Assembly: GCA_021014325.1 (NCBI GenBank)
Contig: CM037476.1
Location: forward strand, 22,232,827 to 22,296,826
Length of the DNA stretch: 64,000 nucleotides
Origin: Plazaster borealis
Lineage: Eukaryota; Echinodermata; Asteroidea; Forcipulatida; Labidiasteridae
Reading direction: 5' to 3'
The position numbers and the translations under genes were made by a program. Shown here piece by piece: positions 16,873 through 49,210 of the stretch (position 1 is its first letter; each line of letters starts with the position of its first letter). Under the pieces are notes generated by a model. It was not told the origin of the DNA. It was given only the letters and a program-made list of their open reading frames with translations, and searched no databases.

Positions 16873-17287
16873 TCCTTGGCCTCTGTTGCCCTGGTCTTGG
16901 CCTCTGTTGCCCTAGTCTTGGCCTCTGTTGCCCTAGTCTTGGCCTCTGTTGCCCTGGTCTTGGCCTCTGTTGCCCTAGTCTTGGCCTCTGTTGCCCCTGG
17001 TCTTGGCCTCTGTTGCCCTAGTCTTGGCCTCTGTTGCCCTAGTCTTGGCCTCTGTTGCCCTAGTCTTGGCCTCTGTTGCCCTGGTCTTGGCCTCTGTTGC
17101 CCTAGTCTTGGCCTCTGTTGCCCTAGTCTTGGCCTCTGTTGCCCTGGTCTTGGCCTCTGTTGCCCTAGTCTTGGCCTCTGTTGCCCTAGTCTTGGCCTCT
17201 GTTGCCCTAGTCTTGGCCTCTGTTGCCCTGGTCTTGGCCTCTGTTGCCCTGGTCTTGGCCTCTGTTGTCCTGGTCTTGGCCTTGGTG
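16873..17287. repeat. 21-bp minisatellite, about 20 copies
   Basis: The unit ttggcctctgttgcccta then gtc repeats about 20 times. Copies alternate between 'cctagtc' and 'cctggtc', and one near 16993 carries an extra C. As 21 is divisible by three and the unit lacks stops, frames stay open on both strands for up to 160 codons (ASVALVL, LGLCCPS, GQQRPRP units). There is no start context or splice signal, and the single-base insertion has no coding consequence selected against. I treat it as non-coding. Confidence 0.93.
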
Positions 17288-17963
17288 CCCCATTCAATAT
17301 TCTTCAGACATTAGTCTGCTTTTTTGGGCCCTCAGAAAAAATAACAATTTTTGTTTAACTGCTTGAAGAAAAGCCTATACCATACATGTATAGGTCAGTC
17401 CTTGAACCCAATAAAATTTGCCTAGTTTTGAAGGGCCAAATATCATGCCTGATAAAATACTGTAATTATTCAATGAAAGTGCCCTTTGCAAAATGAAAAA
17501 CCCCCAGTATCATCTTAAAGATGAAATTCCAGGTCTGCTGAAATACTTAACTTTGCTGTGAAACATTTTCAGGATGAAATCATCCCCTGAAAGGAAGTCA
17601 TATTTTTTTTTATGGTGAATTAATTTTTTCTTATAAAAATAACTGGGAGACGGATGGACATTAATTTGACACATGTTACTCATATTACTGTTACATGTAC
17701 ATGATACTTTTAGGCCCTTACTATTTTCTGGGCGGAAGTTCCCTTTAAAGTAAAGGAAATGCTTTGTGTTGGTACACAAGAATAGAGTTTCGCTGTAAGT
17801 TATTCAGCGAGGTGTACACGTGAACAGAATGGACACATATTATTCTTGACCTGCTTTGTGAATGAAGAAACTGAAAAGAGCCAAGAGCAAAGTCAGTAGC
17901 TTTCTGTACATCGTACTTGAAGTCTCATACACGGACGTACATGTATCTGCATACACTCAACAG

Positions 17964-24822: not shown

Positions 24823-25441
24823 AAATGGCCAAGTCAATTTCCTTTCGATCGTGCATGGAGTGGTTACACACGTGCGCCCTGCAGCTGTGACTTGAATGTA
24901 CCGCCATGGGAAAACACTTTACAGCAACTATAGCATGGTGCTTACTCTGCAATTCATTTTCCGTTGTATTAAACGCTATAGAATAGGGTACGCAACATGA
25001 TGAAACTGGTATCATGTTATTCGAAGCGTTTAGCTACAATCAGCGTGACTGGAAACCATTGCGAAATCAATGCGAGTTTCGTTGGATATACATGTAATGT
25101 ACATCGTACAGGCGTGAGGGATGCTCGATCCTGGATCATTCAAATAGACTCAAACCAAAGAAGGAGGGTACTCGAAACTTTGGATGAAGCTTTTTACTGG
25201 TAAATAAATTTTTTTACACGATGTTCAAAATATTTTGAAGGAAATGGTCAAAAAAGGAAAATGTGCGAAATAATTCTGCTAGTGGTGGTCGGGAATCATG
25301 AGTCAGAACCCTGATGTACCCTATGCAGTGTGTTGTTTGTTGTTCACATGTTAAGAATTGTGGATTTACAATTTGTAATAATTTTGTCATGCCTTCCCCA
25401 CCCCCTTTTCTCATAAATGCAGAAGTCTAAAACCAGTCACC

Positions 25442-25709
25442 ATGCCATTGGTCAAACGAGAAATTGAGCCGGTCAACTTGAGCCGCGGGGTCATCTCCCA
25501 GGGCATCTCCAACGAGTTAGAGTGCGTCACCAACACCACGCTCGCCGGTATCATCCGCCAGCTGAGTAACCTGAGCAAGCATGCCGAGGACATCTTCGGC
25601 GATCTGTACAACGAGGCCAACGGGCTGTGTCGGAGGTCAAACTCACTCCAGGATCGTATCGATAGACTGTCCGTCAAGGTGAAACAGCTTGACGCGACGA
25701 GAGATGATG
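25442..25709 (+). CDS. WASF: WASF exon 1: WAVE homology domain N-terminus (residues 1-89)
   Basis: Starts [10 protein letters not shown], the hallmark N-terminus of WAVE proteins. It continues through [18 protein letters not shown] and [13 protein letters not shown] to [20 protein letters not shown]. In known WAVE complexes these helices bundle with ABI and BRK1 (HSPC300). The acceptor is 'tctcataaatgcag' ending at 25422, leaving 19 bases of leader (ending gtcaccATGC) before the start codon. That leader is open in the same frame upstream. The donor is GATG|GTAAGA at 25710, phase 1. The longer ORF beyond the donor is intron read-through. The ATG was chosen because it gives the conserved start. 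Confidence 0.96.
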
Positions 25710-27014
25710 GTAAGACGACCAATTCCTGCCAACTGCTCCATGCTTTTTTGCCTGCTCTTGTCTCACTGTCCTAGAAATGATCTTTTTTTATGCATTTTGT
25801 TTCTTGTTATGCTTGGTTTTTGTTTATGATGAGTTTACTTTTTAGTGGTGTGGGGGGGGGGTGGATTGTCAATCATTTGATGACAGACATCGTTTGGTAA
25901 AAGCATTGGGAACTTAAGTTCCTTGAAGCTACATGTAATGTACATGTACTCGTGCAATGCTCTGCTTGCTCTGTTTTCATTTCAGGATAATTGAGGTCAA
26001 ATTCCTGTTTGTGAAATTGCACTCATCTTCCATTATCTATCTATTAGAAAGTGAGTGCAGCACAAAACTATAATTTGTCCTAAGAACCCCTCTTCAAGGC
26101 ATCGATTCTTAAATGTACGCATATTTGTACTATGTTCGTACATGTATGATATTGCTATCAATTAATGTGAGGACTTTCCTTTATCCAAATGTGAGGACAC
26201 AACAATACATAGGATTCCAATGTGAGGACAGCATTGTTCCTTATGTGTGCCTTTGTTCTACTGTCCCCTCTCTGCTGATAATACCATGCCATGGACATGG
26301 ACATGGACATGTACACATGTATAAAAAGATACCATAATACTGTACATACTATACCATACATACATGTACACGTGTATGTGTACATGTATCATATCATATT
26401 AAACTTTTTGCCAAGTGTTTAAAATCCCATGTACACATGTATGATGTGGTACAAAACATGTACAAATGTATGTTCGACGTACAGAGTGTTACTTAAATGA
26501 AAATTGCGAATTGCGAATTGCGCAAAAAAAAAAAAAAAAATTGTGTATTAGTTTTTGACTTCATATCAAATTCACAAAAATCTTCTTGGTAACACCATTT
26601 AGGATGCCCCAGATTGCACAGTAGGGCTTTTAAAACCAAAGATAAAAACAAAGTAAAAACATTCAGAGGACCCCATTTCAATTAAGCGTGCTCAGGCCAA
26701 ACTTCCAAAATTTAGAGTCCAAAACGCCCAACAGTTTTTGACAAATCCTGGTGAGGACGCTGCATTCCCTTTAAGTCAAATTGTTTATTCAGGCTAGGTG
26801 ATCTTTTCACAGCTTGACCAAATCTCACAATCAATCTAGATATGTGTAGACTCCCTCCCCACGCAGACATCTTAGATGGCGTCAAAAGTTGACTGACCCC
26901 AATTACTATCGGACACCTTGTACAACCACAAGACATAGTCAACGCTGAAGGGGGTGTTCATCCTCAGACACAGATCATATCAGTCTTGTGTCATTATAGA
27001 CTTGGACTGGTCAA
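25710..27014. other. WASF intron 1, proximal part
   Basis: Donor followed by AT-rich sequence with a G-run at 25850 and many TACATGTA/TACACATGTA phrases (26100-26470), including 'catggacatggacatg' at 26288. A decayed family H copy lies at 26523-26760. No further exon seen. Confidence 0.6.
26523..26760 (+). repeat. Family H fragment (right two-thirds)
   Basis: Starts at an A-run, then 'ccagattgcacagtagggct', 'aattaagcgtgctcaggcca', 'acgcccaacagtttttgaca' and 'aatcctggtgagga'. The left CAGGG end is missing. Confidence 0.6.
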
Positions 27015-27118
27015 AGGTACATTGTACTACATCTGGCAGCACCTGGTCAGGCAGGTACATGTACATGTATCTGGCGTTTTTTACGAGCCTTGAATTTTGA
27101 CGTCAGATGTTCATGCCT
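27015..27118 (+). repeat. Fragment of repeat X (also flanking the U3 region)
   Basis: 'ggtacattgtactacatctg', 'ctggcgttttttacgagcct' and 'tgacgtcagatgttcatgcc' match the inner ends of the inverted pair at 53.9-54.0 and 63.4-63.5 kb. This shows that X is a dispersed family. Confidence 0.6.
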
Positions 27119-27488
27119 TTATAGACTGTGCAAGTCTCGCGGGTATTAGAACTTCCGGGACCAAACAAGTTGGTCCGAATCACATTTTTACGTGTTAGCG
27201 ATTCGGTTTCTTCAAATGCTTAGCCATGAATTTATAAGCCTATTGAATGTAAAATATAATTTTACAAATTAACAAAGAAAACCCAAGAGTAACACCGGTT
27301 ACTTGCAAACAATTGCAAATTTTGCCCAACTGGTGTTCTCCAATCTCCAAAACTCACCTCAAGTCAAGGTGAACTTTGCTTTTTTTCTCAACAAGTAGAC
27401 ACTGTAAGAATTCAGCTGAAACTTTCACAGGTGACTTTTAATTGATTGTATCTTTCTTGATAATTTTGCAAACTGTACATAAAGACCC

Positions 27489-27815
27489 AGGGTTCTCCCC
27501 ATGCACAAGGTAGCACATGTACCTGGCATGTCTGGCCGATATGTGATTTGCGTGTACACAAATTTTTGCCGATATGCAAAAAAAACCACCAAAAAACCCC
27601 ACACTTATTATTATTATTTTTTTTCCCCACAAAAAACATCAAGAGAAAACCATAGAATGCTCCAGATTGCACAGTAGGGCTTTTACAACCAAGTTAAACA
27701 CCAAGGAAACATTTTGAAGACCTTGTTTCAATTCAGCGTGCTTCGGCCAAACTTCAGCAATTTGGGTCCAGAATGCCCCGGAGTTTTGAAAAAAACCTGA
27801 AGAGAACCCTGTATG
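27489..27815 (+). mobile_element. Family H element nested in family N
   Basis: CAGGGTTCTCCCCATGCAC to AGAGAACCCTG, with 'ctccagattgcacagtaggg' and 'ttcagcgtgcttcggccaaa' as in the 22566 copy. Confidence 0.75.
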
Positions 27816-28291
27816 ACCCTACCTTTAAAGAAAAAAAAATCTGGAGGAGTATCCGGTTGTTAAGTATGGAATGTTTCAGCTTTGAGCTACAATATAAACT
27901 TGTTCTTTGAGCTCTAGACATGACATCGATGCGTTCAATGAAGAGGAAATCCTATTATGACATGATATTTGGTGAGAAGTGTACTGTTCCAACCGGTCTA
28001 CCATACACGTCTGCAGCATACATTGTAAATAACGTGTGCATACATGTACAATACACTTCAGGCACCCATGTAAGAGGCAGAGTTTGATAATGTTGTCTCT
28101 CTAGCATGCTTAGTCCAGGAATTATTGTCAAACGTACCGCAGAATTTGTTTCAAACCATTATTCATGTTATTCGGCAGGAAATTTGTTGCGTATTATATG
28201 TATTCTCGTGGATGAGAAATTTCAAACTTTTATCTGAATTCAGTTTTTAAAAGTTTGTCTGTTAAAAAAGTTGCTGCTATTTTCTACATAG

Positions 28292-28326
28292 GCCTGCGTT
28301 GATCATGACGACAGTCCCCTTTAAAA
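28292..28326. repeat. Lone right end of family M
   Basis: 'ggcctgcgttgatcatgacg' then acagtcccctttaaaa matches the right arm of 20488-20669 with no left arm nearby. Confidence 0.6.
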
Positions 28327-29039
28327 GCATTGGCATGATTGGGCCAGTAAACCCCTCAACTCAACAAGTCCTGTACACCAAACATTTTTTGTATAAAATA
28401 GAAATTCCTCCAAATAGACTTGACCTACGTTTCCGGTGTCCTGTAAACAATTTAAGAATTTTGCCCAACTGACGTTCATGTTATCATTGCACCTACATTG
28501 TACATGTACATTCATGTACATGTACATGTATGTAATGGTCGCACAAGTTCTGGCGTGATTGATAAATGGGTTTTCTAAAAAGTAAGCATCTTTTTGTCGC
28601 AAGTTTTAATTTTGCTTCAATGTTTATTTTAACAAATTATTTGTATGAAATCAAAATCAAAATTTTATTTTACAAATTGCTTTAGGTGTATTTATTTTAA
28701 AGAATTTGGAGAACTTAACAAGAAAAAGTTAACTACATAAAAAAAAGTATTCGCTCGAGCTGTTTTCTCGTTTTCGATACGCGCGAGACTTGCACAGTCT
28801 ATTCAAAGGTCTCCTTGAGACAAGAGCTTGTTTCAAGATCAATCATAAATCATGTAATTGTTTGTTTCTGTTTCCATTTATTTTTGTTTTTGTTTGCTGT
28901 GAAGCGCTCTATTCTTCATGTACAGTAGCGCTCAGAATTCTTTGTACATACATGTACTTACATGTATTATTATTATAAATTTTTTAAATTGTATGTACAT
29001 GTGTAAACATAATAATGTAATACAATATGTATGATGTAA

Positions 29040-29525
29040 GGCCGCGTAAAAAAAAAACATGTTTATCGTCCGGGTTCCTGAAAAAAAGGAAGCGGTAGGT
29101 TTTTTTTATTTTTTCAAGATGGCCGCCATTCTTTTTAAAATTTCAAAACAACCATTGTTTTTTCCACTGTTCAACACACAATAATGAAAGAGACATGTTA
29201 GACCAGACATTGAACATGTTTACAATGGTTTTATTTAATACATGTACAGTAGTTTGTTCAGTAAAACCCCTGCTGTAGCTCACTTTCACAAGAATTTAAA
29301 ATGTACATTGTAATGTGTAACTAAACAATCTGTTTTTAACCGTGTAACCGGCACAGGCTTTAGTTCTGACTTTACAAGTATTTTAATTTCTGATATTGTA
29401 TATCAGTTGACATTTTATGGTTTTTAAATCTCATTTTGAATTGGTAAAAATAAAGATAAAATCCATGCGGTCCCTCCTAAAAGGAAGCGGGCGGGGACGC
29501 TAAACATGTTTATTTTCTACCTCGC
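29040..29525. mobile_element. Family J-related MITE (diverged)
   Basis: Left GGCCGCGTAAAAAAAAAACA then 'tgtttatcgtccggg'; right 'gcggggacgctaaacatgtt' then 'tattttctacctcgcc'. The interior has 'ttcaagatggccgccattc', as in the 10120 copy. The flanks (TAA, TGA) are no longer a clean target duplication. Confidence 0.6.
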
Positions 29526-29932
29526 CTGATGTGTACTATATCATACAATTGATTAAGTACAAACATTTTATGTTATTGTTATGTGCACACACACTTGTAT
29601 GCAGCAATCGTTTGTGTAGTTGTATATGTGGCCATTGACATTGTGGCCTTGTGAATGAGAAGGTTCACCTGTGTTTTTCAATTCGGTTTTTTTTATTTTT
29701 ATAAACTTCACTTAACTGTTTTGATTATTTATTAAGGAAACCTGGCATTGAGAACTGACATAAATAAACACAGTAATTGCATTTCTATAAAAAAGGAATG
29801 TGTAGTCTGGTCGTGGGGGGGGGGGGGGGAGACAATGAACAGGTGCGCAGTGGATAGTGGATTTTATGCACATTGAAACATTTTATGTGCAGTCTGCCTT
29901 TGACTATTTAAGTTCTGCATACAGGATTCTCC

Positions 29933-30050
29933 CCAGGATTTGTCAAAACTGGACCCATATTTTTTGAAGTTTTGCCAAAGCACGCTGATTTGAAACTATA
30001 GGTCTTTGGAATGTTCTTTTACTTGGTGTTTAGGCCCTATCGTGGCCTGC
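29933..30050 (+). repeat. Family H fragment
   Basis: 'acaggattctccccaggatt', 'tgccaaagcacgctgatttg' and 'aggtctttggaatgttc'. The right end is lost. Confidence 0.5.
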
Positions 30051-30448
30051 ACTAGTATGTGTTTATTTCCGTATACAGTTATTTTCAAACAGTGTATAAA
30101 ACTTGTTTTGAGGACACAAAAATATTTCCTTGTGTTCCGAGACTACACTTCAATGTAAAACAACAAGCATTGGTTTGAATTGAAACCAAAAGTCGGGAGT
30201 GTTTTATGTAAGTTGCCTTAAATGTCTACATGTAACTGGTGTTACTTGAGAGTTCAAAGTTAGCCTACTACAATGTACATGATGAAACTACTTCCCAGTC
30301 CAACGTGTCCAAGTCCTGTACTTCCTTCCTGTTTTTGACATTTTATAGTTGGGCATGTCAGGCAGTAGATACTCCATAGGCCTACATGTACCCTTCAGAT
30401 TGACATCCCCCATCTGATCATGGTAGGACGTACATATTTTATCAAGCA

Positions 30449-30815
30449 CTTAAAGGCACTGAACATGTTTGAAAATTGTCAAAGACCAGTGTTCTCACTT
30501 GGTGTATCCCAACATATGCATAAAATAACAAGCCTGTGGAAATTTGGGCTCAATTGGTCATCGAAGTTGCAAGGAAATGATGAAAGAAAAAACACCCTTG
30601 TTGTACAAATTTGTGTGCTTTCAGATAGGAATAAAAACTTCTTGCAAGAAGTTTTTATTATTTTAGTGAGAAATTACCCCTTTCTCAAAAACTACATTAC
30701 TTCAGAGGGAGTCGTTTCCTACAATGTTTTACTATCAACAGCTCTCCGTGAAGTTTTTATGCTAGTAAGTTTTTATGTGTTTTGAGTCATTACCAAACGT
30801 GTACGATACCTTTAA
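30449..30815. mobile_element. Terminal-inverted-repeat element, family A
   Basis: CTTAAAGGCACTGAACATG to 'cgtgtacgatacctttaa', with the central 'aacttcttgcaagaagttt' dyad. Its right end overlaps the start of the next family B element in the shared TTTAAAGG. Confidence 0.85.
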
Positions 30816-31258
30816 AGGGATTGTATGTACATGTATGTTTGGTAATTACTCATAAAACTAATGGCAATAAAAACTTACTTGGTAAGAAATGCCGCAGCTT
30901 TTGATACATGTAGTATTTATAAAAGCATTGTTTATAAACATTTCACTTTGAATTGAAGTAATGTGGTTGGAAAAAAGATATTAGTTTTTATCCAAAAAAT
31001 TTGAATCTGAGAAGCGTTTCTGTCAGAACTGTTTCTCAGATTGTGTATTCCATTGCAGATTATTCTTCCTGCGTGGACGTAACCGCTCCAGATTTTCGGC
31101 AGTATGTCAAAAACGCTACGAAAATTTCACAGGTTAGCTTTATGGTAGGCCTATATATCTACAACTATGTACATGTAGGACATGTAGGACATGTAGGACA
31201 TGTAGGATGGAAACAAACAGTGGGTTCCAATCACCAAACGTATATACCTTCCCTTTAA
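30811..31258. repeat. Terminal-inverted-repeat element, family B
   Basis: TTTAAAGGGATTGTATG to 'ccaaacgtatata' then CCTTCCCTTTAA. This copy has gained TACATGTA at 30822 and 30905, TAGGCCTA at 31146, and a 9-bp 'aggacatgt' tandem at 31170-31206 that other family B copies lack. Confidence 0.8.
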
Positions 31259-31665
31259 GAAGCATCTGGTATTTCTGTTACTCACAGTAGACTGTGATTA
31301 AAGGATCGCCAGTGATGGGATACAATTCATCACGTTGCATTCACTGTTTCTAATGAATATATTGCATACATGTATATTGTGGCCGACCGTGCCCAACAAT
31401 CTCACTGTAATTACATGTAGAATTTTGTTATGGATGACTAACAGACTTAAAACCAAATCTACATATATGTGTAATTTTTTGCAAATCCTCCGTTTTGAGG
31501 CTCTTTGTCCGTTTTTCGTTCAATTTCCTATTTTCCTCTCAGCTTGTGAAAAAAGCAATTGCTAAAAAGCTTTTTCTAAGCATCAGCAGGTGCAGTGCAA
31601 ATCTGTGAATTCCATATTAAAATTGTTTAAAAGTCCCCAATTTGAATTGTTAATGTTTTATGCAT

Positions 31666-31735
31666 GTTAGGCCTGGAATTACACAGAGGCCATTACACAG
31701 GCCATGGCCTCTGTTGCTGCCCAGGTCTCCGCCTT
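31666..31735 (+). repeat. Unexpanded relative of the 21-bp minisatellite
   Basis: 'aggcctggaattacacagag' and 'catggcctctgttgctgccc' then aggtct parallel the entry into the array at 16854 ('aggcctggaattatacagtc' then 'cttggcctctgttgccctgg'). Only one unit is present here. Confidence 0.6.
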
Positions 31736-31885
31736 GACAAGGTTTTAGCCAGGATTTGGTAAAAGGGTGTCCAAATTTGCTGGAAATTTTAAAACTGGGT
31801 GTCCAAATTGTTCACTTACAATACATTTACATAGTACATGTATGATAGATAAAACAGGGTGTCCAAAAGACACCCAGACACCAGT
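31736..31885 (+). repeat. Dispersed repeat, family E copy
   Basis: 'aaggttttagccaggatttg', 'aaaactgggtgtccaaattg' and 'acagggtgtccaaaagacac', as at 19285. Confidence 0.65.
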
Positions 31886-32142
31886 TTTGTATGAATGCAC
31901 TGGTATTTAAAACAAATTATACGAAATTGTTAAAAAGTTTTGAGACCTGCATCCACCAATGCTCAAATAGTAGCAAGCTTAAAACTGTTACATTTGGATT
32001 TGACACAAGATGATTTTATCTCATATGCATTCAAATTTGTGTCCGTTAAAATCTTCATTTTGAGGAATTGTAACAACGACTCTGTATATACAGTTTTGTA
32101 AATTGTACAGTTTTCATTTCCTTGCAGTTCAGCGGAAGTATG

Positions 32143-32295
32143 GCTGTTTTCGAAACCACAGCTTTGGCTTCAGGCTCCATCTTGGGCTCTGCATGCCTGT
32201 TTGTAACCCCTTAAGGACAGCACACATTTTCTAAATATCTTTCTGGAAGCCAAGCCCCAGCCCAAGCCCAAGCCTTGGTTTTGCAAACGGCCTAT
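32143..32295. mobile_element. Foldback element, family F
   Basis: Left 'tggctgttttcgaaaccaca' then gctttggctt; right 'cccaagcccaagccttggtt' then ttgcaaacggcc. Ends TGG/CGGCCTA are similar to the copy at 50549. Confidence 0.65.
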
Positions 32296-32867
32296 GCTTA
32301 CATTTGTAGTGTTCCGTCCCGGAACAGAGTCAGCTTTTATACATGAAAAAATTGTTGACCTGGCAAAGGAAAAGTTCATTTACATGTAGTTTACAAAACT
32401 AGAGGGGATGCTAACATTAAAATTTTAGGGGTACATGTAGATACACTGACATTAATACATTATAATTCTGTTTACTTTGTATTTTAATCATTTCTGGTGG
32501 CATTGGTGCTTGGTAAAATGGCTTTCTATATAATACAACAATTGCATCTTTTTCTCCCTTCATGCTTTCCCATCTTGCTCTTGCTTTCCTATATTTCCTT
32601 CGCTCCTTTTCATTCTCACTTTCCCTTCCAACCATCTACACCTTTCTCCCATCTCCATCTTTCTCCTTCTCTTTATCCAATTTTGACTCGCCACCACAAC
32701 TGTTAACATCTTTCTCGTATCTTCTTTGCTCCTCTCTTCAAATGCCTATCCATCCCCCTTGCTTTCCCATCTTGCCATCACTCCTCTTTATTCCAACTTT
32801 CTCTACCTACCATTTACACCTTTCTTCCATCTCCATCTTTCTCCATCTCCTTTTTCTCCACCTTTCT

Positions 32868-33215
32868 CCATGTATCTTTCTTACTACTTCTGCATCCTTC
32901 TTACTATTTCTGCATCTTTCTTACTACTTCTGCATCTTTCTTACTACTTCTGCATCTTTCTTACTACTTCTGCATCTTTCTTACTACATGTACTTCTGCA
33001 TCTTTCTTACTACTTCTGCATCTTTCGTACTACTTCTGCATCTTTCGTACTACTTCTGCATCTTTCTTACTACTTCTGCATCTTTCTCACTACTTCTGCA
33101 TCTTTCTCACTACTTCTGCATCTTTCTCACTACTTCTGCATCTTTCTTACTACTTCTGCATCTTTCTTACTACTTCTGCATCTTTCTTACTACTTCTACA
33201 TCTTTCTTTCTACTT
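32868..33215 (+). repeat. 20-bp pyrimidine-rich minisatellite, about 17 copies
   Basis: The unit ttactacttctgcatctttc repeats almost perfectly. Variants have cgtac or tcac in place of ttac, and one copy has TACATGTA at 32985. It ends about 70 bp before the exon 2a acceptor, is in the sense strand of WASF intron 1, and lengthens an existing CT-rich zone (32560-32870). Each unit offers a UACUAC branch-point-like and UCUUUC/CUUCU polypyrimidine-type sequence. The 289- and 239-codon ORFs through it are by-products that read into exon 2a. Confidence 0.93.
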
Positions 33216-33287
33216 CTTATTGTTCTATATTTTGCATCACTTTCTGCTGCTCTCCTCTCTTCTGCACACCTCGCAACCATCCCGCAG

Positions 33288-33441
33288 TCTCATTGCAAGA
33301 CATCCAGATGCGTAAAGCCTTCAAAAGCTCCACGTTATTGGACCAAGAGGTGGTGGCAAATTACACAATGCCCTCGGCAATGCGGGAAACCTACATGCGC
33401 TGTGACAAACCGCCCAAGCTCAATCTCCTAACCCCTTACAG
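33288..33441 (+). CDS. WASF: WASF exon 2a, alternative version a (residues 90-141)
   Basis: Acceptor 'accatcccgcag' ends at 33287 and donor TACAG|GTAAAA begins at 33442. The 154 bases enter in phase 1 and leave two bases of an Arg codon. The peptide begins VSLQDIQMRKAF and ends RETYMRCDKPPKLNLLTPYR, with SLQDI-MRKAF-SST and NLLTPYR matching vertebrate WAVE closely. Tyr125, equivalent to the regulatory tyrosine at this position in WAVE1, is in RETYMRC. In WAVE complex structures this stretch runs along CYFIP/Sra1. Of the two versions, this is the more conventional. Confidence 0.95.
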
Positions 33442-33768
33442 GTAAAACCAGTAACAAAACCCCCCTGTCTATTCCCAAACGGGCACAGAGGATCTTTAAC
33501 ATTCCCAATTGGGTAGGAGGATCGGATTAGGATTTGGAGATGAATCTTATCCATACTTAAGTGCTTCTCACTTCACGACTGCTTAAAAAACATAAATACA
33601 AATAATATATGAAAATGATTAATTCCACTAAATATTTTGGGGAATGCTCAACTCTGCTTTTTCCTGAGATTGAAAATATTAATGAAAATTCTAAATTAAT
33701 TAAAACACAATTACCATTTGAACGCAACTGTTCTGCATCTTCACCTTGGCTTGAAATACCCAACGGAC

Positions 33769-34220
33769 CAGTGGCAAGGGTCTGTGTGCCAGTGATCCCC
33801 ACAGCTAAACAAATCCTGCATTTTAGAGTTTTTACAAACATATACTTTTGAAGATTTGCTGATGTATCCTTTTAGCTCCTCGATTCAAAATTTTCTCCTG
33901 AAAGACAAAAAGTGGCAAGGGTCCAGTAATGTGTCGGTGACCCCCACAACTAAACAAAATCCTGCATTCGAGAGTTTTTACAAAGACATAGGCCTACTTT
34001 TGAAGATTTGCTGATGTATCCTTTTAGCTCCTCAATTCAAAATTTTCTCCTGAAAGACAAAAAGTGGCAAAGTTCCAGTAATGTGTCGGTGCCCCCCACA
34101 ACTGAACAAATCCTGCATTCTAGGGTTTTTACAAACACATACACCTGTACGTATACTTTCGAAGATTTGCTGATGTATCCTTATAGCTTCTCGATTCAAA
34201 ATATTTCCTCCTGAAAGATG
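33769..34220. repeat. Intronic tandem repeat, three units of ~140-158 bp
   Basis: Units begin at 33769, 33909 and 34067 with 'agtggcaagggtcc(a/t)g' and share 'cccccacaactaaacaaa', 'ttttgaagatttgctgatgt' and 'aattttctcctgaaagac'. They lie between exons 2a and 2b. The second unit has gained TAGGCCTA at 33989 relative to the first. Confidence 0.85.
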
Positions 34221-35160
34221 AAGAAAAAAAATCACACCATAAAAACAAAGAAGTCGTGAGCTACATCTACAAGACCGAGTGTTCTAGTGGACACTGTCTT
34301 GAAAATTTAATTGTCTATGTGTCATTGCTTTGCTCATTTTGCATTGCTGTCCAATGTATAATGCATGCGCACCTGTTCTATTGCATAGATACAGTCAGTG
34401 TGATGTACATGTCAGAATTCTAAGAGGTCAACCCAGCGAGTTGTAAAGAAACATTTTTCTTCATATATGATTGTATACAAGTTCTAGATGATGACAAAGG
34501 GCATCAAAAAGTTATCAATGTGAAAACGGGCGATAAATCTAAATGCCATCCTGGAATTGCCTTGTCATCCAGAAACATCCCCCTTTGATATCAAGCCGGC
34601 CACAAATCACCTTGGACTGTGCCGGCTTGATCCCGTTGACTTGATTGTCCGTAGCGATGACTCACCGTCGTCGGGGTGTCGTGAATACCTCACTCTCACT
34701 CTCTCTCTCCCCCTTCCCCGGTTCCCTGAAGACCGGTCTCCCTCTCTCTTTGCTCTGACAGCTAATTATTGAGGGTTATGCACCGCAGCTGTTGGGGGGG
34801 GGGACCATTTCGCATTTTAATCGTTTGTCATGAAAATGAAATATGCCGTTTTGGACACTTGTCAATGAGTGTGATGCGTAGATCATTGTGGATCAAGCAA
34901 TCCTTGATGCTCTTGACTTTGTCGGAGAGGAGGCTTGTTTAAGACGCCGTGGCAAATTACATTTTCAGATGGTTTCCGATCGTTTGAATATCGAAGAGCA
35001 ATCAAGGTATACACATCTACATGTAAGTGTTATTTGGCCACGGAGGGAAAGCAAAATTCAAAGATTCTAAAATATTTATAGGATATAAACCCCCCCCCCT
35101 CCTAAAAAGAGATATAATATATTTGGAATTATGAGACCCATTTTGCATACTATACGTGCA
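34221..35160. other. Intronic stretch between exons 2a and 2b
   Basis: No exon recognised. It contains a CT-rich run near 34690-34750, and G or C homopolymers at 34794 and 35090. Confidence 0.5.
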
Positions 35161-35162
35161 AG

Positions 35163-35421
35163 TAGCATCTTGTAACGGTTTACAAGGTGCTGTGGCGCAA
35201 GCTTTATGCAGCCCACCAAGCCAGAAACACTGGGGCGAACCTGTTCTCATAACGATAAGTGTACTGGATTCTTTTACTTGCATTACACACACACAGGACC
35301 AACGGCTTTACGTCCCATCCGAAGGACACAATTGTCAAGACCGGGACTCGAACCCACGCTCTGCTGATCAGAAACACCAGAGCTCATGAGTGCGGTTTGC
35401 TTGACCGCTTGGCCGCGCCAA
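35163..35421 (-). mobile_element. tRNA-derived SINE copy
   Basis: On the minus strand, an A-box-like 'tggcgcggccaagcggtcaa' then a B-box 'gggttcgagtcccgg' (near 35340) start the element. The body contains 'ggatgggacgtaaagccg' and 'agtacacttatcgttatgag' as in the 39.4-39.8 kb copy. It lies about 450 bp before exon 2b. Confidence 0.75.
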
Positions 35422-35873
35422 ATGTCCTGGCCCATGACACAATTGGCAGGCCAGATAAACATAAATAATGGCAATGGAGATGTATTTAATGGTATTGAAA
35501 GAAATTTCTAAATCTAAAAAGAAATTTTTTCCTCAAGTTAAACTACAATAACAAGTAATTTAGAAGCAAAAATTGTACAACAAAAAATAAGGTAAATAGT
35601 GGATTATGAATGATTGTTTAAAAACTCAGGAAAACGTTTAGAGTTGTTTCATCGGGGAAATATAAAAGAAACTGCACACAATGTTTGCAGTGCATTTGCA
35701 ACCATTCAAAAAGGGACTCCGACCTTAAAAGTTCACCTGACATTAAGAAGTAATTGAGAAGCACTATGGATGGCCAAGTTGATCTCCAAATCTTAATCCT
35801 TCCCTCCCAGGGCATCACAGATTCCCTCCCAATTAATGAAATTAAATCCAATCCAAACAAACCCAATGTTTAG

Positions 35874-36027
35874 TGGAGCTGACGCAGCTGTTGGACGTAC
35901 AGCAGTTTCGGGCTAGCACCATTCCAGACGTGGTGACGTTTGACGCAAACACCATGCAAGCGGGCATGCGGGAGACCTACCTCAGATGTGACCCGCCACC
36001 TGATCTCAATGTCTTGAGTCAGTATAG
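35874..36027 (+). CDS. WASF: WASF exon 2b, alternative version b (residues 90-141)
   Basis: Acceptor 'aacccaatgtttag' ends at 35873 and donor TATAG|GTAAAG begins at 36028. The 154-base exon is the same length and phase as exon 2a. The peptide begins VELTQLLDVQQF and ends RETYLRCDPPPDLNVLSQYR. By eye 23 of 52 residues match exon 2a, concentrated in the C-terminal half, including Tyr125. The N-terminal half (TQLLDVQQF, TIPDVVTFDANT) is strongly diverged. It is open, GC-richer than its flanks and has good splice sites, so it looks functional. Splicing after 2a would hit TAG at 35914-35916. Confidence 0.9.
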
Positions 36028-36202
36028 GTAAAGTAAAGCCCGACTGGGAATAGTACCCAGAATGGGATAGTGCCCGAGTACGGATAGTGACCGCTTTGGG
36101 GATTTAAACCCGATATGGAAAAATGCCCAGATTTGTATTTCATGTCTGCTTGTGGGGGAGCCAAAGCCATATCCAATGATTTGGTTTTGGCTATGGCCAC
36201 AG

Positions 36203-36392
36203 CCAGGGCCAAAATTCATAGAGCTGCTTAAGTTCAAAACAAAATTATGTTTACCTAATATGTTTACCAACCAAACTACCATGTCACATGCACTATCTCA
36301 GGTGACTGGTTTCCTGCTTATTTCTGCTTAGCAGAATATTTAACTAAGCAATAGTTTCAGCTTAAGCAGCTCTATGAAATTGGGCCCAGATC
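36203..36392. mobile_element. Terminal-inverted-repeat element, family L
   Basis: Left 'gggccaaaattcatagagct' then gcttaag; right 'gcttaagcagctctatgaaa' then TTGGGCCC. The interior 'accatgtcaca' and 'tgactggt' is shared by all copies. Located in the intron after exon 2b. Confidence 0.8.
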
Positions 36393-36510
36393 ACTTCAAA
36401 CTCCTAATTAGTTTTTTCCATTCCACAATCCCTCATTAATGTTGCTGCAGCTGGTGGTGGCTGCAGCTCAAAGCCAGAGTCCTCTAATTTGGACATGGCT
36501 CGTCTCCCAG

Positions 36511-36662
36511 TAGACTGTGCAAGTCTCACTCGTATTCGAGCGTACATGTACGACCCGTTAAAGTGCACAAATTTGTTCCCTTCTCACTTCACATCAATGA
36601 ATAAAGGAACCCGAGATTCCCCCAAATTTTGGAATAACATGTCCGCGAGACTTGCATGGCCT
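36511..36662. mobile_element. Short family N derivative
   Basis: Left TAGACTGTGCAAGTCTCAC, right 'ccgcgagacttgcatggcct'. Most of the interior is deleted compared with 27121-28802. Confidence 0.55.
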
Positions 36663-37513
36663 ACAGGGATATTGCCCAAATGAGAATACCCAGATAAGAA
36701 TAAGTCCCATTTAAGAATGAAGCCCATTTGAGAATAACAAGCCCAGGTTTGGATCGAATTGTGAATTTACCCCCAGTTGCGATACATCTTGATCTTCTTT
36801 GCTTAAAAAAACCAACCTGAATGAGATCGGGAAAAAATTGCTTTTTTAGGGTTAGTAACCCAATTGAAGTTTTTTGCATCCTTGTGGGGAAACTTCACCT
36901 AGATTCAAGGCTTGGCTTTATTTAAGAGACGGGGCTTCATCTAAACAAATGAAATAGAGGCCTAGCGCTCCACAGCAATGACATGCTTGGGAAAATATGA
37001 CTCAAGTGGCTTTGTGACACGCATCAATGCACATGAACGCCGTCTAATGTTGATCACTTTTACTTCCTTAATAAATCAAACATTATATACTAAGCTAAAA
37101 GGGGTGGGTTATAATAAAGAAGAGGGGGGTCAAATTAAAGTGCAGATTGTCATTAAAAGCTTTTAAACACATGTATGTGTCAGAGCTGCCAACTCTCCCT
37201 GATTCTGTAGAAAGTTCCCTGAAAATAAACCAATCTTTCCATGCTCTGATGAATAAATTTGAAAATCTCCCCTGGTTTTATGGAAACCTTTTTTCCCTAT
37301 TTATGTTGAATGTACAGGTAATTATAAATATCTCCCTGATTGTTGGACAAAATCTCCCTGATTGCAAGATGCAAATGTTGGCAGCTCTGGTGTGTACAAA
37401 AGAAGACAGTCTGAGCTGTGACCCTTGCATTGTATAATCGAGGGTGAAATTGATCTTTTCAGTCGATTTGAATGAAGTTATATATTCAGCATTGTATTGT
37501 CCACACCCCCAGT

Positions 37514-37910
37514 TTTAAAAGGTTTGTGTACGTTTGGTAATGACTCTAAAAAATAATGGTAATAAAAACTTACTTGGTAAGAAGTACAGCAGCTTTGGAT
37601 AGTATAATGCATTTTGAGAAAATTTTCACTTCAAAGTACTGCGGTTATGGAAAAATATTTCACTTTTTTTCCCCAAAAATTTGAATCTGAGAAGCGTTAC
37701 TGCAGTAACGTTTCTCAGATAGTGTATTCAAATTGCAGATTATTCCTCCTGCGTGGACATAACCGCTACAGATTTTCGGCAATATCTCAAAAACGCTACC
37801 ACCTTTTAAAATTAAATTTTCAAGGTTAGTTTTATGGTATAAATCTACAACTATATAGGATTGAAACAAACAGTGGGTTCTAATTACCAAACATATACAA
37901 TCCCTTTAAA
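37514..37910. repeat. Terminal-inverted-repeat element, family B
   Basis: 'ttttaaaaggtttgtgtacg' to 'acatatacaatccctttaaa', with the central dyad 'cgttactgcagtaacg'. It is a clean reference copy without TACATGTA gains. Confidence 0.8.
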
Positions 37911-38196
37911 TAGAGGCTTCCTGAATCTGGTGATGGGTTTTGTACCTACATTTACATGTACCTAATATACCCTCGTTGACCCTGGAGGGACAAAAGGCTG
38001 TTTGGGTTTTGTAGATGTTTTTAATGCTTGTTGACTTGTCACACACAAGACAATTTTTGAAGGCAACTTTGAGGGCCAACCAACTGCACTCCATAAACAA
38101 AATTATCACTTCGGTGGAACAAGAGACATTTTTGCAATCATTGTCTTATTATTCCCAATGCAGAGCTTGATTTTCACAAAGTGCTAAGGTTCGTCT

Positions 38197-38577
38197 TGAG
38201 GGGGTGCTTTCGTCATGATCAAAGCAGGCCTGTGGCTGTTCATGGAATTATGAACTCTCACACAGTTCCTTCACTCGCGCACCCTCCCTCCATAGCATAT
38301 CTTTTGAGGGCAGTAACTGCAGAGTTCATGAATTCATGTGCAGCCACTGGCCAGGGCCCAATTTCATAGAGCTGCTTAAGCACAAAAAGCTGCTCAGCAC
38401 AAAACAATTATGCTGAGCAGGTTTAGATTACCATTCAAAATACCATGTCACATGTACAATTTGTGACTGGTATCCTGCCCATTTTTGCTCTGCGGAAATT
38501 TGTTAAGCAATGGTTTGTGCTTAAGCAACTCTATGAAATTGGGCCCTGCTTTGATCATGTCGATACTGCCCCTTCAA
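38197..38577. mobile_element. Family M element interrupted by family L
   Basis: Left arm 'gagggggtgctttcgtcatg' then atcaaagcaggcc; right arm 'tgctttgatcatgtcgatac' then tgccccttcaag. The intact copy at 20488 reads ggcc|tgctttg without interruption where the family L element (38354-38547) lies here, so the empty-site equivalent is visible. Confidence 0.8.
38354..38547. mobile_element. Family L element nested in family M
   Basis: AGGGCCCAATTTCATAGAGC to GCTCTATGAAATTGGGCCC-like ends ('aactctatgaaattgggccc'), about 194 bp, flanked by ggcc and tgctttg. Target duplication length is ambiguous because element ends and target share GGCC. Confidence 0.85.
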
Positions 38578-39073
38578 GATGGTTTGTCAATTTTGCCATA
38601 GTGATTTGTAATGTGACATCACACGTTGCGTAGCAATTAGATTGATACACATATCAAGATCAATCCTAGCCCTTTGTGAAATCCGCCCAAGGAATACGAC
38701 CAGGTGACTGTTCTTCCCCCCTCTCGGAGATTGCATCATACCAGAGCCGTATATTGAGAGAGTTGCGACAACTTGCGATTAGAAGCCATTTTGTGTATAA
38801 AAAAAAGGCATTGGCGAATACAGGGTGCCAGACTAGTCTGCCCATTGGGTTGTGCTGCATTTGAACCGAAAATGGCGTCCTGCAACCACGTGACCGAAGA
38901 AAAACTGGTCCCTGTATGTCACAACTCTCTCAATACACAGCTCTGCATCCAAGTGGTTGCCCAGAAATTGCCCTTAGTGACAATGCCCTTAGATTAAATT
39001 CAAACAATATCTCCTCCAAGACGGTACCATTTTTAAAAAGTCTTAAACCGTTTTCTGTCGTTTTGTCTTTCAG

Positions 39074-39191
39074 GGAAGATGGCAAGGAAGCTTTGAAGTT
39101 CTACACCGACCCGAAGTACTTCTTCCAGCTTTGGTGCGAAGAGATGCAGAAGAATATTACGGATATAAGAGAAAAGAAGAATAGGAAAAAG
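39074..39191 (+). CDS. WASF: WASF exon 3: end of WAVE homology domain (residues 141-180)
   Basis: Acceptor 'gtcgttttgtctttcag' ends at 39073. The first G completes the Arg codon begun in exon 2a or 2b. Residues EDGKEALKFYTDPKYFFQLW, then CEEMQKNITDIREKKNRKK, match the conserved vertebrate segment DGKE-LKFYT-P-YFF-LW. The tyrosines at KFYT (151 by this count) and KYFF correspond to positions phosphorylated by Abl-family kinases in vertebrate WAVEs. Donor AAAAAG|GTACGG at 39192, phase 0. If neither exon 2a nor 2b were used, the exon 1-3 junction would reach TGA at 39094. Confidence 0.95.
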
Positions 39192-42067: not shown

Positions 42068-42950
42068 AAAAAACATGAGCGAAAGTCAAAACAACAAGAC
42101 AAGCCAAGTCGAATCAAAACGCGACAAGAGAAATGGCAGTCGATGGCGCTGGGTCAAGAGTTCATGCAGGACACCACGCCGACGGCGACGCCAACCTCGG
42201 AAACGAGAGAGCAGCCCTACTCCGACGGCGGGTCATCAAAGGGATCGAACCATAACATTAATCAGTATCAGCAGCAGCAGGCACCAGCGCAGCCGTACCA
42301 GCAACCTCATCTCACAAAGGAGAGCATGTCAAGGTCCTCGTCGGAAGGATTTGACGAAGTGGGTTCATACGACAGCGGTCACCAAAGATCGCAACGCCCC
42401 ATGAATCGGCCGCCCCCGCCCCCATCGAACCAACCAACACCAGAGTTTCAGCAACCGCCAATTTTAAATGGCTCCGTCAACACACCGAAGCGGCCGGCAC
42501 CACCCTTACCTTCCCAGGCAGTCAACCACCAGGTGCCACCCACGCAGGACCAGTACAGACCCCAACATATCCCTGTCAACCAGACCATTTTACCCCCCAG
42601 TCATCCAGCAGACATGGCACCCATCATGAACAACGCTGTCCCCAATCACGTGCCACCCCCACCTGCTCCTCCCGCTGCACCCATTACGAACGCAAACATT
42701 CCCCCACCCCCGCCACCTCCACCACCCCCTCCCGTTGCGGGAATGGGCGGCATACCCATACCCCCTCCACCCATGATGCCTGCCCCTGCACCTGGCTCTG
42801 GGCTGCCATCTGCTTCCCCTGCACAGGGTGGGGATATACCAGAGTCGTCAAGTCCTGGCAACTTGGCCTCTCCGAAACGAGCATCAATGCGACCAAAGCC
42901 TCCGCAAGTTAGTAATGACAGAAATAATCTCTTGACAGCCATACAGACAG
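42068..42950 (+). CDS. WASF: WASF exon 4: linker, poly-proline and start of WH2 (residues 181-474)
   Basis: Acceptor 'gccaacgttgttatttcag' ends at 42067. Residues open KKHERKSKQQDK and carry RQEKWQSMALGQEF (about 199-212), equivalent to the conserved 'EWQ-LA-G' block after the WAVE homology domain. A Gln/Ser/Pro-rich linker with RPPPPPSNQP and KRPAPPLP sites follows. An 11-proline run lies at about 393-403 and IPIPPPPMMPAPAP after it; these are probable profilin and SH3 (IRSp53/ABI-type) ligands. The exon ends in the WH2 helix, DRNNLLTAIQT|G, at a phase-1 donor ACAG|GTAAGA. The ORF's upstream ATG at 42047 is intronic and is not used. Confidence 0.95.
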
Positions 42951-43764: not shown

Positions 43765-43960
43765 GGCGGCCAAATTTCATAGAGCTGCTTAAGCAGACAA
43801 TGGTGCTTAACATTTTTCTGCTAAGCGAAAATAAGCAGGATACCAGTCACAAATGGCACACGTGACATTGTATTTTGGCAGGTACCCTTATTCTGGTAAG
43901 GAGAAATTAGTTGTACCTAGCTGTTTTTTGTGCTTGAGCAGCTCTATGAAATCAGGCCCT
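43765..43960. mobile_element. Terminal-inverted-repeat element, family L
   Basis: 'agggcggccaaatttcatag' then agctgcttaag; right 'gagcagctctatgaaatcag' then GCCCT. Interior 'gataccagtcacaaatg'. Confidence 0.8.
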
Positions 43961-44063
43961 GGAATGCAATTGTTGCTTGTCGTGATAAAACCAACCAAAA
44001 TCAGTGAACAGTTTAAATAATATTTCAACTTGCGACATAAATGCCACCGTTTTACCTTTCCAG

Positions 44064-44227
44064 GTATCAACCTCCGTAAAGTTGAGATACAGGAGGAGAA
44101 GGCCAGGTACCAGACACCGGCAACTAACTCTGTAGAAGCGATCTTGGCCCGCCGCATCGCTGTGGAACTGAGTGACTCCGAGTCGGAAGGCAGTGAGGAT
44201 GACGACGACGATGAAGATTGGGACTAA
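44064..44227 (+). CDS. WASF: WASF exon 5: WH2 end, central and acidic segments (residues 475-528)
   Basis: Acceptor 'ttttacctttccag' ends at 44063 and completes the Gly codon. GINLRKVEIQEEKAR finishes the WH2 (actin-binding V) motif. TNSVEAILARRIAVELSD (495-512) is the central amphipathic helix that packs on CYFIP when inactive and binds Arp2/3 when released. DSESEGSEDDDDDEDWD is the acidic tail, with the Arp2/3-binding tryptophan second from the end. TAA stop at 44225-44227. The acidic serines fit the CK2-type sites known in vertebrate WAVE. Confidence 0.96.
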
Positions 44228-48404: not shown

Positions 48405-49210
48405 ATGCTAGGTTTCTGGCTCCGGCCCAACGTTTCTGGCTTTGGCTTAGGCTTTGACCACAAGGATTCTGGCTCTGGCTTTGGCTTTGACCACAAGGCT
48501 TCTGGCTCTGGCTTTGGCTTTGACCACAAGGATTCTGGCTCCGGCTTGGGCTTTGACCACAAGGCTTCTGGCTCTGGCTTGGGCTTTGACCAAAAGGCTT
48601 CTGGCTCTGGCTTGGGCTTTGACCACAAGGCTTCTGGCTCTGGCTTGGGCTTTGACCTCAGGCCTTCTGGCTCTGGCTTGGGCTTTGACCACAAGGCTTC
48701 TGGCTCTGGCTTGGGCTTTGACCTCAAGGCTTCTGGCTCTGGCTTGGGCTTTGACCACAAGGATTCTGGCTTGGGCTTTGACCACAAGGCTTCTGGCTCT
48801 GGCTTAGGCTTTGACCTGAAGGCTTCTGGCTCTGGCTTGGGCTTTGACCACAAGGCTTCTGGCTCTGGCTTGGGCTTTGACCTCAGGCCTTCTGGCTCTG
48901 GCTTGGGCTTTGACCACAAGGCTTCTGGCTCTGGCTTGGGCTTTGACCTGAAGGCTTCTGGCTCTGGCTTGGGCTTTGACCACAAGGATTCTGGCTTGGG
49001 CTTTGACCACAAGGCTTCTGGCTCTGGCTTAGGCTTTGACCTGAAGGCTTCTGGCTCTGGCTTGGGCTTTGACCACAAGGCTTCTGGCTCTGGCTTGGGC
49101 TTTGACCACAAGGCTTCTGGCTCCGGCTTGGGCTTTGACCACAAGGCTTCTGGCTCCGGCTTTGGCTTTGACCACAAGGCTTCTGGCTCTGGCTTGGGCT
49201 TTGACCTCCT
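48405..49210. repeat. 33-bp minisatellite with a 225-bp higher-order unit
   Basis: About 24 copies of a 33-bp unit 'ggctctggcttgggctttga' then ccacaaggcttct. Two units lack six bases (27 bp). A block of six 33-mers plus one 27-mer is itself duplicated with a 225-bp period ('cctcaggcc' at 48656 and 48881). Both strands stay open ([11 protein letters not shown] on plus, [11 protein letters not shown] on minus). The flanks resemble family F arms ('cgtttctggctttggct' and 'gaagcctaagccacgg'), so it probably grew inside a family F foldback. No evidence of a real protein. Confidence 0.9.

Follow-up and report, generated by a model that had tools for sequence, protein, structure and literature searches.

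A probable mutually exclusive exon pair at the start of the meander in the WASF/WAVE gene of a sea star

Within a 64,000-nt stretch of contig CM037476.1 of the sea star Plazaster borealis (hereafter the window; the features of the gene described below lie on its forward strand), a WASF/WAVE gene holds two versions of one coding exon, which raises the question of whether this gene makes two WAVE proteins by choosing one exon at a time and, if so, what the choice would change. Among the Rac-driven switches of branched actin, WAVE holds a central place, and the state in which it is inhibited is commonly viewed as one fixed structure.

The gene model comprises coding exon 1 (25442..25709; residues 1-89 plus one base, followed by a GT donor), exons 2a (33288..33441) and 2b (35874..36027), encoding the canonical and an alternative meander segment for residues 90-141, respectively, coding exon 3 (39074..39191; from the end of the codon of residue 141 to residue 180, including Tyr151), coding exon 4 (42068..42950; the proline-rich region and the start of WH2), and coding exon 5 (44064..44227; the end of the VCA region and the stop codon). 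The predicted protein has 528 aa with 2a as well as with 2b. Its identification as WASF/WAVE, made in the initial annotation, was borne out by the PDB WAVE1 chains, which match the 2a form over residues 1-183 with E-values from 6.6e-68 to 4.1e-67 and the 2b form over the same residues with an E-value of about 1e-59; by these matches, the WAVE homology domain and the meander are present in the predicted protein. In the Pfam search the sole match of the two full-length forms was WH2 at residues 462-486 (18.9 bits, under the cut-off of 23.1), and the two segment pieces gave none. Exon 4 is proline-rich and the C-terminal end is acidic (...DDDDDEDWD), as read from the sequence and aligned with sea-star WASF. 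Among the matches listed in the protein search, the closest proteins were those of sea stars, and exon 4 is more similar to that of Asterias amurensis (214 of 273 ungapped positions) than to that of Acanthaster (178/290).

Two side observations concern the 5' part of the gene. The frame upstream of the ATG at 25442 is open (25382-25441), and its translation, ...RSLKPVT, recurs in the Asterias protein; the N-terminal extension counts 31 residues in the Asterias protein and 40 in that of Acanthaster, so the true start of sea-star WASF may lie further upstream. A genome search with exon 1 returned the exon itself and one distant gene (36% identity), whose product presumably resembles the Nance-Horan type of WAVE homology domain.

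Exons 2a and 2b are each 154 bp long, are entered in phase 1, and end on the second base of an Arg codon; both are preceded by AG and followed by GT (donors GTAAAA and GTAAAG). When both are included, translation reaches a TAG at 35914..35916, and when both are skipped, a TGA at 39094..39096. The encoded peptides are identical at 23 of 52 residues, unevenly distributed between positions 90-113 (6/24) and 114-141 (17/28). All of this agrees with the initial annotation, which had also stated that only the inclusion of one of the two exons gives a full protein. The pair thus combines two features expected of mutually exclusive exons: the neighboring exons are homologous and agree in length and phase, and the frame is broken by both or by neither.

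The resemblance of the two exons cannot be attributed to chance, as their alignment score is 111 and the best of 2,000 shuffles reached 14, while among 33 stretches of the AG-154-GT type found within 25710-39073, four were open in the required frame, including 2a and 2b themselves. A third copy was not found at E ≤ 1 in a tblastn search of the 64-kb window with both peptides. Codon positions 1, 2, and 3 of the two exons are identical at 24/51, 32/52, and 18/51 sites, respectively (positions 1 and 2 versus 3, one-sided p of 0.019). In a comparison of the introns flanking 2a with those flanking 2b, the exons matched over 84 columns at 69% and, apart from the exons and an inverted pair described below, no similarity with E below 0.06 was seen. 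The exon pair is real. Because both exons together, or neither of them, would lead to a truncated protein, we infer that the two exons are likely spliced in a mutually exclusive manner.

The relatives of P. borealis offered a further view of exon 2b. A search with residues 88-141 of the 2b form (2 candidates) returned one protein, P0001, named by the database 'actin-binding protein WASF3-like isoform X2 [Asterias amurensis]', in which 2b replaces 2a. Exon by exon, its identity to the predicted protein is 87/89, 50/52 (exon 2b), 39/39, 214/273 with 21 gapped positions, and 48/54; exon 2b is therefore about as conserved as exon 1 and more conserved than exon 4 (Fisher p of 0.0016). The initial annotation had named the absence of 2b from closely related species, or its decay there, as an argument against the pair; Asterias shows neither. 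As for 2a, all 52 residues are identical in Acanthaster. A 125-residue piece returned three proteins (10 candidates). One of them, P0123, comes from a 1,513-bp contig; this reading frame of 108 residues extends up into intron sequence and has the same 2b as P0001, residue for residue. In an alignment with degenerate codons, in which every synonymous codon is scored as a match and the fit is an upper bound on identity, P0123 agrees with exon 2b at 123 of the 125 informative positions and needs no gap there, and it agrees with the 162 intron bases preceding 2b at 126 of 137 positions, with 13 gaps. The splice sites and the frame of 2b are intact both in the window and in P0123.

Judging by the identity with A. 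amurensis, the contrast between the gapless exon and the gapped intron, and the codon-position pattern, exon 2b is under coding constraint, so that coding constraint on both exons, as expected of a mutually exclusive pair, joins the features listed above. The sequences compared indicate that the pair has been kept at least to Asterias and is very likely functional. An unused duplicate of 2a undergoing decay might be suspected from the mere 23 residues that the two peptides share, but such a duplicate would hardly have left its splice sites and reading frame undamaged in both the window and P0123, or 50 of the 52 residues unchanged in A. amurensis; this explanation is barely credible, and 2b as a chance or decayed duplicate was rejected on the shuffles and on the same comparisons.

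Another possibility is that 2b acts as a poison exon, i.e., that it joins 2a, introduces a premature stop, and so lowers the amount of WAVE, its own peptide being irrelevant. The TAG at 35914 would serve this purpose, and the acceptor of 2b is weak, its longest pyrimidine run being 3, compared with 6-14 at the other five acceptors. A peptide without relevance, however, would not be expected to be retained in A. amurensis or to align gaplessly with P0123, and the A. amurensis database protein carries 2b in the place of 2a, not behind it; we consider the poison exon very improbable. The weakness of the acceptor suggests that the inclusion of 2b is regulated.

To see how widely the two segment types occur, WASF proteins were typed. 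The protein search gave 664 proteins at E ≤ 0.001 (900 candidates), and the typed set consisted of the best 120 of these and three from the 125-residue query (123 proteins, mostly vertebrate WASF3). The segment was of the 2a type in 117, of the 2b type in two (P0001 and P0123), and divergent in four, namely P0008 and P0121 of Apostichopus, P0016, and P0122 of Amphiura, the last lying on a contig different from that of the other listed WASF of this species. The four divergent segments have no positive net charge (-2, -2, 0, and -4 in the order given); they may be relatives of 2b or may have arisen by independent changes. It should be stressed that the protein database groups sequences into clusters at 90% identity and that isoforms differing at 29 of 528 residues would share one cluster, hence the absence of 2b from other species means little. 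In a tree of 23 segments (52 residues each), 2b grouped with sea cucumber segments with a support of 50 and on long branches, so this tree is not informative about a deep origin of 2b. Within P. borealis, a query of 2b plus exon 3 against the 560.6-Mb genome, with the best candidates scored, had three matches, all inside the WASF gene, and no other WASF locus was found as a source of 2b.

What the swap would change in the protein can be read against human WAVE1 (WASF1; PDB 3P8C, 4N78, and 7USC-7USE), which aligns without gaps over residues 1-183 with either exon. For this reason WAVE1 numbering is transferable, and Tyr125, Pro131, Pro132, Leu134, and Tyr151 are numbered alike in both species. 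According to passages of PMC5614565, the WAVE meander spans aa 90-184, its helix alpha2 binds the V region, and the meander sits on Sra1. Passages of PMC9481577 describe that Rac1 bound at the A site releases the meander after Q130, that alpha2 touches the W helix, and that Y151 sits in a lock formed by P131, P132, P133, L134, and L148 of WAVE1 and by Sra1. The initial annotation had placed the swapped segment where WAVE1 contacts Sra1, and this location can now be sharpened: following these passages, the swap begins at residue 90, exactly the start of the meander, replaces alpha2, and spans the link, alpha3, the polyproline wall, and the beginning of alpha4.

Within this segment, 30 of the 52 residues of human WAVE1 are identical to 2a and 21 to 2b. 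Among the 117 proteins of the 2a type, 28 positions are near-invariant (conserved in at least 95% of them), and 2b alters 15 of these (91, 93, 94, 95, 97, 99, 100, 102, 103, 109, 110, 111, 112, 118, and 130), 13 of them between 91 and 112, within alpha2 and behind it. Retained are V90, L92, F101, S104, D108, Y125, P131, P132, L134, N135, L137, Y140, and R141, and the presence of Tyr125 in both versions, claimed earlier, is thereby upheld. Position 133, a Pro in 108 of the 117 proteins, is Lys in 2a and Asp in 2b. The net charge of the segment is +3 in 2a and -3 in 2b, compared with +1 to +4 in the 117 others and 0 in PDB WAVE1. Predicted models of the Asterias and Acanthaster proteins (numbering offset 31 and 40), with pLDDT near 45-54 over alpha2, place the first helix at 92-98 with 2b and at 92-101 with 2a, and with both exons they contain helices at 119-127, 134-140, and 144-152.

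Since alpha2 is replaced and the pocket residues are kept, the published vertebrate structures, as described in the passages cited above, would predict that the release step is kept and the clamp altered. Our reading of the 2b form is thus an altered V clamp with a retained tyrosine lock. The clamp would most likely be looser with 2b, a view that derives from the loss of the conserved motif and not from anything seen in the models. The helices occupy the same positions in these low-confidence models, and the clamp might instead be re-made and not loosened; the net charge of 0 in the PDB WAVE1 segment likewise counts against this reading.

The same data have to be weighed under a different explanation, in which the exons are exclusive and coding, but 2b affects the binding of partners (Sra1/CYFIP, Abi, or a new ligand) or the stability of the complex and not the clamp. 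Sra1 underlies the meander in the passages of PMC5614565, and the six-unit charge shift is distributed over both halves of the segment. On the other hand, the concentration of 13 of the 15 altered near-invariant positions at 91-112 and the retention of the tyrosine-lock residues of the segment point to the clamp, and we regard partner binding as an unlikely main effect.

A further question is how the splicing machinery would choose between the exons. The intron between 2a and 2b is 2,432 nt long and has GT-AG sites, which rules out steric crowding and mixed U2/U12 spliceosomes as means of exclusion. A stem was predicted within this intron between an arm at 33504..33586, which begins 62 nt past the 2a donor, and an arm at 35743..35812, which stops 61 nt short of the 2b acceptor (61 base pairs, -71.2 kcal/mol). 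It came up post hoc, as an inverted pair met during the search for traces of duplication. With 900 random intron stretches neither arm paired as strongly, and scans of 1,208 windows for each arm, true-partner windows included, gave means of -28.0 (sd 6.3) and -25.7 (sd 7.2). The predicted fold of the whole intron retains the stem, with a probability near 1 at the three pairs tested. The two 150-nt ends of the intron pair at -80.5, compared with a shuffle mean of -39.9 (sd 5.0) and a value reached by none of 500 shuffles, and this pairing ranks top of 15 donor-acceptor combinations (runner-up -67.9). A 91-bp query with arm 2 had one match in the genome, very common words being skipped.

Other properties of the stem are less distinctive. 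Its strength shows no strand bias (-71.2 sense versus -68.0 antisense), and in the P0123 alignment arm 2 is conserved no better than the surrounding intron. At 29.8 kb lies a rival partner for arm 2, which was rejected as a G run; instead of at least two selectors competing for one docking site, one strong pairing was found. Eight of 25 inverted pairs in the gene reach 44 bits, the stem among them; the other seven do not connect 2a with 2b, and several have arms in common, a pattern expected of dispersed repeats. We treat the stem between the flanks of the 2a donor and the 2b acceptor as a lead, predicted from the folding of this one sequence.

A CU-rich minisatellite with a 20-bp unit (32874..33217; 16.9 copies) ends 70 bp upstream of 2a and supplies the only excess seen in the counts of splice-factor motifs, i.e., that of TCTT, which occurs 16 times in the 250 nt preceding 2a and once in those preceding 2b. 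The intron between the exons also holds a tandem array at 33785-34218 (2.8 copies of a 152-bp unit). Related inverted copies at 36203-36386, 38351-38545, and 43768-43962, located in three WASF introns and sharing 71-77% identity, likely represent a dispersed repeat. Elsewhere in the window there are a 21-bp minisatellite at 16875-17290 (19.8 copies, 95% match) and a 33-bp minisatellite at 48434-49206 (23.8 copies), the latter open on both strands (longest frames 286 aa on the plus and 298 aa on the minus strand) with no evidence of a gene.

Taken together, we consider it reasonably probable, from the sequence and the published vertebrate structures, that 2a and 2b are mutually exclusive and yield two WAVE complexes predicted to differ in the restraint of the V helix. 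In the proposed mechanism, two exons of one WAVE gene would provide alternative first halves of the meander (residues 90-141), the frame rule would deny a full protein to double or null products, and the predicted stem would bring the region behind the 2a donor together with that ahead of the 2b acceptor. Exon 2b would replace the V-binding helix alpha2, and Pro131, Pro132, and Leu134, lining the Tyr151 pocket, would stay. The Rac/Abl release step would be retained and the clamp changed, most likely to a looser one, giving a different activation threshold. The complete version of this proposal, in which sea-star 2b WAVE has lost the canonical V-helix clamp, keeps the tyrosine lock, is poised near activation, and is chosen by an intronic RNA bridge, is tentative and rather doubtful as a whole. 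If true, two activation thresholds would be available to an animal with a single WAVE gene; vertebrates have several such genes. With a natural swap at the start of the meander, the V-helix clamp (alpha2) would be uncoupled from the tyrosine lock, and each would become testable with a sequence already vetted by evolution.

A mutually exclusive exon pair in WAVE was not found in the open-access literature searched, outside of which most subscription papers lie. Related arrangements are known from other genes. Passages of PMC6071210 and PMC11802352 describe long-range intronic pairing at the duplicated exons of Dscam, 14-3-3zeta, and ATE1, as predicted here. Those genes rely on competing pairings, whereas the sea-star WASF gene has a single credible one. 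In FGFR2, a stem forms between the two alternative exons (IAS2-ISAR). Its exons IIIb and IIIc are likewise an alternative pair for one domain, as described in passages of PMC5703972, which contain no WASF or WAVE; FGFR2 differs in gene, protein, and regulators, and control by Esrp or Rbfox is not indicated for the WASF pair. The closest likeness within the WASP family comes from a 2012 study of cDNA/EST clones for splice forms of WASP-family genes (PMC3298513), passages of which report no alternative exons except for one pair, exons 11A and 11B of Aplysia californica WASP. These are also mutually exclusive and, in the reading of that paper, also touch autoinhibition, but they encode part of the second WH2 and the C domain of WASP, whereas the sea-star pair encodes the meander of WAVE.
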